Shown in pieces: positions 47,493-57,785 of a stretch of DNA of 64,000 nucleotides. Both the position numbers and the translations under genes were made by a program. The stretch covers positions 8,437,501 to 8,501,500 of the forward strand of contig NC_089727.1 of assembly GCF_035083965.1 (NCBI RefSeq), written 5' to 3'. A model generated the notes under the pieces. The model was not told the DNA's origin. It did not search any database and was given only the letters and a program-made list of their open reading frames with translations. The stretch comes from Branchiostoma lanceolatum (Eukaryota; Chordata; Leptocardii; Amphioxiformes; Branchiostomatidae). The stretch's first letter is position 1. Each line of letters starts with the position of its first letter.

Positions 47493-50400
47493 CTAGTACA
47501 GGCTTGTTTTCTTCATGATGCGTAAGAATTCTTCCTCATTGATTTCTCCGTCACCGTCCCTGTCAGCCTCGTCAATCATTTCCTGACAGGAGAGAGGGTA
47601 AATTTGTTAAGTCAAGAAGGTAAGGAAATAATGCTGCTGAAACATCTATGTCATTATATGATAACTAGTACGAAGGACACTTTTAAGTTAAAAGTGCCTA
47701 TGCCACCAATGCAACTGAAATGCAACAGTTCCTGACTTGAAGTACTATTCAATGAACAAAGACATTTGTACAAACTAATACACCCTTCTGATGTCAGTGA
47801 ACATCAAACCTTATATATCATACTTCTAGTTCTTGAATCGTACCACCAGGAAATTGCTTAAATTCCATCGATACCATCACAGGGAACCTGGCATCCTGAC
47901 TTGCAAGAGACGCTGTTTTGAGAAACAAACAGTGCATAATCATTGTGATTATGTACAATTTCAAGTTATTATGAATGATCAGAATCATAATGTTTGCTTG
48001 GTCTGTTTCTCAACAGAACGTTAAAAGGTTCCCAACCAGCTGCCATGTTCACAGTATAATACTTATTATAATATGGTTAAATGTTATTGAGGACTGTTGT
48101 ATTTCACTGGCATTTGGTGGCGTAAAAAAAATAAGCACTTGAAGCATTGGGCTTGTCTTTCTTTCATAATGTGCACGTGCAGAAGAACCACCATTGGATC
48201 ACACTCTGTGATTGGTTGTTGACTGGCCAATCACATGCTGAGGTGATACATTTGAATGGACCAATCACAGAGCCTACCTCAAAGTTCTTTTGCTTTTCTA
48301 TCTGAAAGGAAAACCCACTGATATACATGTACTATGTACTAAGCACAACTGACCTACAAGTTAAATCATAGGTAACAGTATCATAATTATAAGATAGGAA
48401 GGATCATGATAGCAGTAAATGATGTGTCAAAATAAGACATACCTGAAGCTCCTCATCTGTAAGGTTCTCCCCAAGCTCCTTGGCCACTCTCTTCAGGTTC
48501 TTGAAGGAGATTTTACCTGTCTCGTCATCGTCAAAGAGACGGAAGGCTTTCAGGATCTCCTCCTTGGAATCTTTTTCACTCTGTGAGAAAACAAACATGA
48601 TTGAACCAATGTGTCAAGTTCTGACATGACATTGACAAGCACTATAGTCATCTATGTGCAGGCTTTCTTCTTGAAAAATAAGGGGCCAATTAACGGGGCC
48701 ATGAAAGGGGCAGACTCAGCAGAGTGATCAAGTCGGGAGAGTTTGAGAAAATATGAAAATGGGTCATACTAAGGCTTTTTGACCGCAAAAACTATGATCA
48801 GACAAGTCAAAGTTGAGTACTGTGGCCGCCTGTGGACAGTAGTGGTCAATCAGAATTTTCGAGTTTTGGCACCTGTTATGGGAGCACCCCCTAGTTTATT
48901 TTGGGTCTCAATTCCAGTTTGCACACCCCTAAGTCTAGCGACCGTCTCTTCCAGGAAATACTTCTGAGCCAAAACAACTGTGAATGGGAATGAAGGCTAT
49001 CCCTCTAGCTACAAGAAAACCCGAGTTTCGGTTTCTTCAACCTTTGTAATTTTAGTAAATATAAGGGGGAAAAAGTATTTTTCCGTCAAAAATGAGGCGC
49101 AAAATTTGGCATTTTCCCGTGGAACTAAATACATCACAAAATTTTTTGACACGAAAATGACTGTTAGTGTCAGAAAGAGAAAACTCCAAGGTATAATCAA
49201 GCCCATTATAAAGAAAATCCTACCACTGTGATTTTCACAATAACCCGATGCGCGAGGTAATGCAACACGGCCAAAAGAACGAAGGTCAATCTGGGTCAAA
49301 GGGGCAGTTTACCTTCAACGCGTATGGATATCCGGAAGTAAGGCTCGGATCGAAACGCAATTTCCACCCAAAACACACCAATTCATACGCTTTTCGGCCA
49401 TGTTAGTATCTAATGTCAGTTCGAAGCACATTTTGAGAAATGTGAACTCAAACCCAGACCCTCGAAACCCTTTCGTCCCTTTTTTGTCGCGGACTACCAT
49501 GGACCACTGTCGCGGAAGAACTGGTGCGTGCACCGTTATGGCAGTATGAGGGCCAAATACCCCTGTCTAGAAAAAAATCCTGTTAGTGCATCGCTAAAGA
49601 CTACTGTTGACTAACTACATGAAGTTTTTAGCAGCCCTCCCACTGGTTAGACCCATGGCAACGAGAGAGTGTGTAACACAGGCTAAAATCTGCTGTAGTA
49701 AACATGCAAAAGCTACCTGACTGTCACATCTTTGCAAACAACATGCACAAATATGGGAAAACAGTCTTTTGTCTTCCTAATGAAAACACTTTGTATATCA
49801 ATCATAAAATCACATGTAGAATAGATAAAACAATAAAAAAGACAGCATATGACTACTAGTCATAATACTGTGATTCTCTAAAATCGGTCAAATTTCTTCT
49901 AAAACTTGTGTTTTTCGAATGCTATTGCTGTAACAGTGTTCTGTTCTTTTTACACACATAATTTAAAGAAAAACCTACCATTTTCTGGGTCATCATTGTG
50001 AGGAAGTCATTGAAGTCAATGGTGCCTGAAAAAAGGAAGCAAACTGTGTAAGAATGTAACATCCTGATTTCAACTTATGAGAGATGGATTTGAAAGTTAG
50101 ATTTGTGAACAATAGGCTGATCCCATAGCCCAGCCCAAAACGGAGAAAAGCAAAATAAAAACATAAAATATGTAACTATTTGACAGACTTACAGCCACTT
50201 TCTCATTGGTCAAACTGCTAATTGCCATGCTATTATTGGTTGAACTGTTAATTTTGATGAACAGTCAGGGTTGCCAATTTTCTTATGTGAAAGACATGCA
50301 GACACACATTTTTAGTCAACCAAACTTACTAGTTCTAGTACAAAGGTTTCTCTCTTTAATTAATGTGTTTCCCTGTCAAAATTGCAGAATGAACGATACA

Positions 50401-56200: not shown

Positions 56201-57785
56201 CGCGGTTTTCGCGGAGAACTCTTAACCGCGAACTTAAAGCCACTGCGAAAAGTGTTTCCATTGTGACTGTAGCGCTACTACCGTAAAATCCCTATTTACG
56301 TACGCACTTTTTAAACTTTTCAAGTCGCAAGCAGGTGCTCCAGGCTGACGCCAAAGTCGGGGTGCGTACGTTAGGAGGGGTTCTTCCTCGGAAAAATTGC
56401 ATATCAGCTTGAGAGTATGGTACATCTTCATGCAAATGAAGTGTGGAATGCTACCACACAATCAATCACTAATAAAGAATAAATGATACATATATTTGAC
56501 ATTTTTTACCCAGAAACATTTACTCAGTGACGCTTTAAGTTGGTAAACATCATCTGAAGGATGATCATGTCAACCTCTAACTATCCACCGAAATGCTGGA
56601 GAGGGGGTGCGTACGTTAGGAGGGTTTTTCCCCTGAACGTTTCAACTCACTGAGTCAGGCCCGCAATCGTCCCCAAATTGGGGGTGCGTACGTTAGGAGG
56701 GGTGCGTACGTAAATAGGAATTTTACGGTATTGTTTCAAACGCGAACTTAAAAACCACCGTGAACACTCCATTTGTGGTCTACCGGGAAGTACAATCCAT
56801 GCGAACATTTCTGCATTTACAGTAAATCAAAAACTAGACTAAGCTGTGTTGACATCTTTGCTTTGTACCTGTTGAGGCCAGTAATGCTTATCAATAGCTT
56901 ACACCTAATAGTACAATGTACTGTAAATCTTGAAAATTTCTCGTTGGTTTTATTTTCGCAGTGACCTCTCCACCATAAATTAATGAGACTGCAAATACAC
57001 GTTTCCAATTTATGACAACTGTACTTCAGAATTTGTTTCAACTACCAATTCAAAACACTGAGAAAACCAGGCGTCCTTTTCCCTCCTACGGGGAAATAAA
57101 AACCACCACGAAAGTAGATGATTTTACAGTAATTTTGTATTGGCTTGATCAATAATCTTGTCTCTTTCATATTGTGTATGTGAGTTTGTTATCAGCATTG
57201 CTTTTGCTTATATCATAATAATATTTTATAGTACATTTTGTCCTTCATTTTGATACGGAATATTAGAGATATAGAGACTATAGATATAGAGAAGTTTATA
57301 CATGTGTGCTTTTATGATTGATGATGTTGAATTGTGCCCCAATACACCCACTTTCCAATTCTTGATCATAACTTACATTGATATGCCAAAAAAAAAGGCT
57401 TTGCAAAAATGTGTCGAAAATTTGTGTAAATCTTTACTTTCTGTATTTTCAGGCATTCCACATCACCAATGATGAGCCCATCCCCTTTTGGACTTTCATG
57501 TCTCGTATTCTCGAAGGGCTCAATTATCCCTCCCCAAAGATGGGACTTCCCTACCTCCTCATATACTACTTAGCTGCATTCCTTCAGCTTCTATGTTTAC
57601 TCCTTAAACCAATTAAGGAGTTCAAACCCACCTTTACCCCCATGAGGGTGGCATTGGCTGGGACGTACCATTATTATAGCTGCCAGAGGGCCAAGCAATT
57701 GATGGGTTACAAGCCTTTGGTGCCCCTAGATGAAGCTATAAAACTTACTGTAAAAGGTTATGCTCATTTACAAAACAAAAACTAA
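53211..57785 (+). CDS. NSDHL: Sterol-4-alpha-carboxylate 3-dehydrogenase, 7 exons, 344 aa
   Basis: This NAD(P)-dependent ER and lipid-droplet enzyme performs oxidative decarboxylation in the C4-demethylation steps of sterol synthesis. Exons: 53211-53231, 53511-53669, 54305-54451, 54829-54957, 55389-55531, 56044-56146 and 57453-57785. They total 1035 bases and all junctions are GT-AG with consistent phases. The nucleotide-binding GGCGFLG is at residues 15-21, and the catalytic Tyr-Lys pair is in YTETK (143-147). Family signatures include [36 protein letters not shown] and [16 protein letters not shown] hydrophobic segment (266-285) is the expected membrane anchor, followed by [13 protein letters not shown]. 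It is slightly shorter than the human protein because of a shorter N terminus. No defects are seen. Confidence 0.97.
53929..54275. mobile_element. Diverged AGGGCTGTGTAC-family element in NSDHL intron 2
   Basis: TTTTCTAGTGGTAAATTGTC and GAACCTGTACCTAAAC match the interior of the 46759-47080 element. The terminal inverted repeats are eroded. Confidence 0.5.
55030..55199. mobile_element. MITE, ACTGTAAATGCA family, complete, in NSDHL intron 4
   Basis: It begins TACTGTAAATGCATTTAAG and ends CATTTCTGCATTTACAGTA. The 170 bp copy retains both ends and GGCGAAAATGGAGTGT, the reverse complement of words in other copies. Confidence 0.85.
56163..56824. mobile_element. MITE, ACTGTAAATGCA family, split by another element
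   Basis: The left part 56163-56280 starts TACTTTAAATGCAGAAATG. The right part 56729-56824 ends GAACATTTCTGCATTTACAG. The two halves join to the normal family layout once 56281-56728 is removed. It lies in NSDHL intron 6. Confidence 0.85.
56281..56728. mobile_element. Second inverted-repeat element nested in a MITE
   Basis: CCGTAAAATCCCTATTTACG followed by TACGCAC is mirrored by GTGCGTA then CGTAAATAGGAATTTTACGG. TA stands on both sides (56279-56280 and 56729-56730), as in TA-targeting transposons. The interior has three copies of GGTGCGTACGTTAGGAGGG. There is no coding frame. Confidence 0.88.
56918..57131. mobile_element. Related element with TACTGTAAATC ends
   Basis: TACTGTAAATCTTGAAAATTTC and GATGATTTTACAGTA are inverted ends. 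The interior has AAATAAAAACCACCACGAAA. It is a sister subfamily of the ACTGTAAATGCA MITE. Confidence 0.65.

Follow-up and report, generated by a model that had tools for sequence, protein, structure and literature searches.

A head-to-head centrin–NSDHL gene pair in amphioxus, with a probable shared promoter and an FGF1/2-like neighbour

The locus described here raises the question of what keeps a centrin gene and NSDHL, a human disease gene, side by side and head to head in amphioxus; to our knowledge, no functional link exists between centrin and NSDHL. The pair lies in a 64,000-nucleotide stretch of the Branchiostoma lanceolatum genome (assembly GCF_035083965.1, contig NC_089727.1, positions 8,437,501 to 8,501,500 of the forward strand), referred to below as the window, and all positions are given in window coordinates. 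A preliminary description, made from the letters alone, had suggested that the arrangement is the one found in humans, that it was kept since the chordate ancestor, and that the promoter shared by the two genes is itself under constraint. We propose that the centrin gene (Cetn2/4 type) and NSDHL form a chordate-ancestral divergent pair under one compact bidirectional promoter that has no TATA-box match, a reading to which we assign a probability of roughly 0.7.

Centrin on the minus strand and NSDHL on the plus strand form a divergent protein-coding pair, with GT/AG splice sites at every junction of both rebuilt models. The pair extends from the centrin stop codon at 47493 to the end of the NSDHL stop codon at 57785 (Table 1). 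The centrin model is composed of six coding exons (53013-53011, 51072-50917, 50535-50454, 50025-49979, 48580-48443 and 47582-47493, minus strand). Among the best 60 of its 180 PDB matches, the bit scores were 302.8 for Centrin-2, 289.1 for Centrin-1 and 166.2 for yeast Cdc31, and 144 of the 171 aligned positions (84.2%) are identical to the Centrin-2 of entries 28js and 2ggm, which we take to be the human sequence. Yeast Cdc31 groups with CETN3; judged by the PDB bit scores, the amphioxus protein is nearer to CETN2/CETN1 than to the Cdc31/CETN3 group. A search of the genome_contigs collection with the centrin query (180 stretches; two loci in bacterial metagenome-assembled genomes, with best-segment identities of 42% and 63%) was uninformative on gene order. 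The 42% locus (L001, 6001-6554) is a centrin-like stretch on a contig binned as a Verrucomicrobiaceae metagenome-assembled genome, and is possibly a eukaryotic contaminant. Intron 1 of the amphioxus centrin gene contains an inverted repeat at 51424-52047, with arms of 64 nucleotides that are 97% complementary and 496 nucleotides between them, which looks like a miniature inverted-repeat transposon.

The NSDHL model comprises seven coding exons on the plus strand (53210-53230, 53511-53669, 54305-54451, 54829-54957, 55389-55531, 56044-56146 and 57453-57785). Its 21 PDB matches are headed by 6jkg with 381.3 bits, the runner-up reaching 71.4 bits; 161 of 234 aligned residues (68.8%) are identical to 6jkg, a chain of 245 residues that matches query residues 6-239 only. 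By this wide bit-score margin and the 3Beta_HSD domain, the gene is identified at the sequence level as NSDHL (sterol-4-alpha-carboxylate 3-dehydrogenase). The frame of the last exon by itself (57372-57785) gave no PDB match at 0.001, the 6jkg chain ending before that exon, and the C-terminal third of the model rests on the open spliced frame, the Pfam 3Beta_HSD match up to residue 263 and a presumed likeness to human NSDHL. In the viral_contigs collection the NSDHL query, which detects close relatives only, returned two pattern-matching stretches, neither of them encoding a relative.

The preliminary description had placed the two start codons 197 bp apart; the spliced models show the divergent genes to be real, and the distance is 196 bp. 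The centrin frame contains no in-frame ATG ahead of its first upstream stop. The NSDHL frame contains in-frame ATGs at 53135 and 53153 ahead of its own, in addition to that at 53210, and its start is therefore uncertain, with a gap of 121, 139 or 196 bp. The first coding exons are tiny, consisting of 3 bp in centrin (the ATG alone) and 21 bp in NSDHL, and both transcripts therefore probably begin within or at the edges of an interval of 120-200 bp. The 196-bp spacing and these small exons suggest that transcription of the two genes begins at sites within 1 kb of each other, distant non-coding first exons being possible.

A duplication at human Xq28 is described with the listed order CETN2, NSDHL and part of ZNF185 (PMC6208182), and an interval of turkey chromosome 9 (9.52-11.25 Mb) contains SPRY3 and has ZNF185, NSDHL and CETN2 as its final genes, PGK1 and TRPC5 being included in a second interval of the same chromosome at 12.77-13.27 Mb (PMC8470100). 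In duck, NSDHL, EDNRB2 and CETN2 are among the genes nearest to associated single-nucleotide polymorphisms, an unordered list that speaks for proximity only (PMC9317390). The suggestion that amphioxus and humans share this neighbourhood thus holds for adjacency, with CETN2 and NSDHL listed together both at Xq28 and in turkey. The same two genes adjoin in human, turkey and amphioxus, whereas ZNF185 is listed beside NSDHL in the two vertebrates and an FGF1/2-like gene lies past NSDHL in amphioxus. We take human CETN2 and NSDHL to be head to head at Xq28; the human, turkey and duck reports cited give no orientation.

Under random gene order in a genome of 20,000 genes, a given pair would be adjacent and divergent with a probability of about 2.5e-5 by simple arithmetic, which makes common descent far likelier than chance. 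Chance adjacency was set aside as very unlikely on this figure, and inheritance of the pair from the chordate ancestor is the likeliest explanation. Divergent pairs and bidirectional promoters form a known class, of which centrin–NSDHL is one case. In amphioxus, bidirectional promoters are found at 25% of neighbouring genes and are enriched for housekeeping genes; 372 of them were classed as putatively ancestral, most of which vertebrates have lost (PMC6292497). Retention of centrin–NSDHL is therefore notable, not singular. It resembles those putatively ancestral promoters in that two divergent protein-coding genes are separated by a very short gap, although it is unnamed in the covered portions of that paper. 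Conservation of divergent pairs has been reported at the level of the class (PMC3815023, PMC2871058). A eukaryote gene-order study reported close pairs of this kind to be enriched in chicken; fishes and non-vertebrate animals showed no such enrichment, a result that sits uneasily with the amphioxus data, and the main text of the study names neither gene (PMC2871058). A literature search, with supplementary tables outside its reach, yielded no description of the amphioxus pair, and the literature on NSDHL together with a bidirectional promoter yielded only an unrelated use. A related paper on FGF genes (PMC2446394) deals with members of the family other than these.

To characterize the interval between the genes, 20 consensus patterns were matched to both strands of positions 53001-53240 (240 bp) and compared with 500 dinucleotide shuffles. 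The CCAAT-box and half-site calls are consensus matches. The extended CCAAT box (RRCCAATSR) occurs twice against 0.058 expected, a count equalled in 1 of 500 shuffles, and the two boxes face outward, one towards each gene; at least two such boxes occur in 15 of 1063 overlapping 240-bp stretches of the window. The pattern TCACNCCAC, the form of the sterol regulatory element given in PMC10815951, has a single exact match in the 64-kb window, and it is located in the gap, where TCACACCAC ends 7 bp ahead of the ATG at 53210; with one mismatch allowed, 0.186 matches are expected in the test stretch. Further matches include TNAAGGTCA (one site against 0.006 expected; five in the window), a YY1-like AANATGGC at the NSDHL ATG (one against 0.048 expected; 15 in the window) and two TISU-like matches of poor quality, one at each ATG (0.524 expected). 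The 240-bp stretch has no TATA match, which counts for a compact TATA-less promoter. The GC content of the window as a whole is about 41%, which, like its intron-rich genes, suits amphioxus without being diagnostic. Control of centrin from the gap through a ciliary X-box was considered and set aside, with no match at two mismatches against 2.09 expected.

Considering this composition, we hypothesize that one nucleosome-free region most likely serves both genes and would be opened by the outward-facing CCAAT pair, while the sterol-type element beside NSDHL would add regulation on the NSDHL side. Separation of the genes would then damage one or both promoters, so that the arrangement would persist. 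Sharing of the promoter and factor binding are predicted, and constraint on the interval is plausible. In chick liver, NSDHL is named among the genes that SREBF2 targets directly (PMC6995218); in mouse, NSDHL drops under mTOR inhibition, and the mTOR-affected sterol-pathway genes preferentially carry SREBP sites, NF-Y sites and sites of a third kind, SP1 according to the section heading (PMC8199781). With TCACACCAC and the CCAAT boxes as candidate sites and the NSDHL start uncertain, the interval is a possible SREBP target promoter with NF-Y.

Several observations weigh against this proposal. Some of the 20 patterns are looser forms of one motif, and the values carry no correction for multiple trials. 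Taken by itself, the CCAAT core is unremarkable, with two occurrences against 0.79 expected and an equal count in 0.178 of shuffles, and CpG enrichment is modest, since 46 of 1303 same-size stretches reach the count and 116 of 1303 reach the ratio. Nine of the 20 patterns were unmatched in the 240 bp, a set covering NRF1, ETS, CRE, TATA, X-box, ZNF143, Sp1 and E2F. The nearest match to the classical sterol element ATCACCCCAC is two mismatches off (0.200 expected; 0.188 of shuffles), and an NSDHL start at 53135 or 53153 would make the putative sterol site coding. CETN2 and NSDHL also stand in separate gene lists of a single-cell study, an observation that lends no support to co-expression (PMC11411778).

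The pair could instead have been retained passively, as an ancestral arrangement in which no promoter element was selected as shared and the very short gap left little room for breakpoints. This would agree with the conservation of divergent pairs as a class and with the lack of any functional link known to us, but the paired extended CCAAT boxes exceed what shuffling usually yields (1 in 500), and we consider passive retention unlikely, though by no means negligible. A putative shared promoter, plausibly under constraint, remains our preferred explanation for the ancestral pair.

Beyond the pair, exons of an FGF1/2-like gene lie about 2.2 kb past NSDHL and tail to tail with it; its first exon was not found in the window and is perhaps beyond the window edge. 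Among the best 60 of their 114 PDB matches, these exons hit FGF1, FGF2, an FGF7/FGF1 chimera or a consensus basic form. An FGF1/2-type gene is typical of chordates. The preliminary description had also noted PGK1 in the same window, and a PGK gene is indeed present, with one exon frame matching both Pfam PGK and PDB PGK entries (Table 1). As support for promoter constraint, PGK1 was rejected: in turkey it lies on the chromosome of NSDHL and CETN2, in a later interval, so that an ancestral linkage group accounts for its presence better than the promoter does.

The FGF1/2-like neighbour would connect the window with a second vertebrate segment. On mouse chromosome 3, the listed genes are Spry1, Spata5, Nudt6, Fgf2, Bbs12, Cetn4, Il21, Il2 and, further on, Trpc3 (PMC11898013), and a human CETN4 remnant lies on the minus strand of chromosome 4 (PMC2864566). 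Mouse Cetn4 has introns, in contrast to the retro-derived Cetn1 (PMC4650658), and is therefore no obvious retrocopy. The mouse Cetn4–Bbs12–Fgf2 neighbourhood places a Cetn2-group centrin near an FGF1/2-group gene, as in the amphioxus window, and CETN, SPRY and TRPC genes recur in both segments, that is, in the mouse Cetn4–Fgf2 list and in the turkey lists with SPRY3, NSDHL, CETN2 and TRPC5. These recurrences we take to be paralogues from the same duplications; a general 4/5/13/X paralogon exists in humans, and the human CETN4 remnant presumably lies in band 4q27. Because the window joins centrin, NSDHL and PGK, which belong to the X side, with an FGF1/2-like gene, which belongs to the chromosome 4 side, it resembles an unduplicated precursor of CETN2–NSDHL (X) and CETN4–FGF2 (chromosome 4) under a presumed duplication history. 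After the vertebrate genome duplications, the future Xq28 copy would have retained centrin and NSDHL, and the future human chromosome 4 copy would have retained a centrin (Cetn4; a human pseudogene) near FGF2 and lost NSDHL. A process of this kind is termed disentanglement in the amphioxus genome paper (PMC6292497). On the opposite side, the mouse Cetn4–Fgf2 list, in which Bbs12 stands between the two genes, is without NSDHL, and the turkey lists name FGF16 and neither FGF1 nor FGF2 (PMC8470100).

A more far-reaching proposal would combine a sterol-responsive bidirectional promoter, acting since the chordate ancestor with NF-Y and SREBP driving both genes and tying centrin to cholesterol supply, with a centrin–NSDHL–FGF1/2 micro-cluster as the single precursor of the CETN2–NSDHL and CETN4–FGF2 neighbourhoods; taken as a whole, we regard it as distinctly doubtful. 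That the adjacency arose separately in the amphioxus lineage and in vertebrates is most improbable, both from the random-order figure above (arithmetic only) and from the FGF1/2-like and PGK neighbours, which fit the same vertebrate linkage; nothing was found in its favour.

Table 1. Positions of the gene pair, the interval between its start codons, candidate motifs and neighbouring genes in the window
Feature	Position	Strand	Basis
Cetn2-type centrin, 171 amino acids, EF-hands	47493..53013	-	spliced model; PDB matches; Pfam EF-hand_1 in 4 stretches
Interval between start codons, probable shared promoter	53014..53209		196 bp; GC 48%; 14 CpG (observed/expected 1.25); predicted promoter role
NSDHL, 344 amino acids	53210..57785	+	spliced model; PDB 6jkg; Pfam 3Beta_HSD, residues 13-263
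Extended CCAAT box, NF-Y type, forward towards centrin	53113..53121	-	consensus match
Extended CCAAT box, NF-Y type, forward towards NSDHL	53148..53156	+	consensus match
Possible nuclear-receptor extended half-site TAAAGGTCA	53184..53192	-	consensus match; putative function
Possible sterol regulatory element TCACACCAC	53194..53202	+	match to TCACNCCAC
FGF1/2-like gene, two exons (62633-62530 and 60158-59967)	59967..62633	-	PDB matches; Pfam FGF
Phosphoglycerate kinase gene, PGK1-like, approximate limits	17916..24546	+	frame 22906-23229 with Pfam PGK and PDB PGK matches; other exons by eye

The remainder of the window contains repeats and further open frames. The sequence TCTCCAAGCAGA is repeated at 35926, 58384, 58556, 63069, 63763 and 63954 (six matches with at most one mismatch, against 0.39 expected), and some copies stand at the ends of fold-back repeats (58380-58571 and 62965-63078), which suggests one family of fold-back elements. 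Two open frames of 583 amino acids each, at 37145-38896 and 42648-44399, encode C2H2 zinc fingers in 84-bp tandem units and are possibly tandem duplicates. A 585-amino-acid frame at 31509-33266 has Glu/Lys/Met-rich repeats on a purine-rich tandem array; the Pfam scan covered its C-terminal 188 amino acids only and found no match there. A 623-amino-acid open frame at 1393-3264 carries a reverse transcriptase domain and resembles a long interspersed nuclear element, and frames at 14339-15169 and 11008-11352 match Pfam DUF4663 and the C-terminal part of the UDP-glucuronosyltransferase family. A tRNA scan of the window under the bacterial code and an Rfam search at gathering thresholds both returned no hits.

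Two useful additions to the description of the pair are made here, the FGF1/2 neighbour and the two-segment reading. The neighbour offers a concrete reading of why Cetn4 is located near Fgf2 in mouse, and the two-segment reading would account for the presence of PGK in the window as well. Because one vertebrate copy still has both genes (CETN2–NSDHL) and NSDHL has apparently gone from another (CETN4), the locus is a clean system in which to ask whether promoter constraint or inertia is what holds old head-to-head pairs together. If CETN2 shares a regulatory interval with NSDHL, this would also bear on the interpretation of non-coding variants at Xq28.

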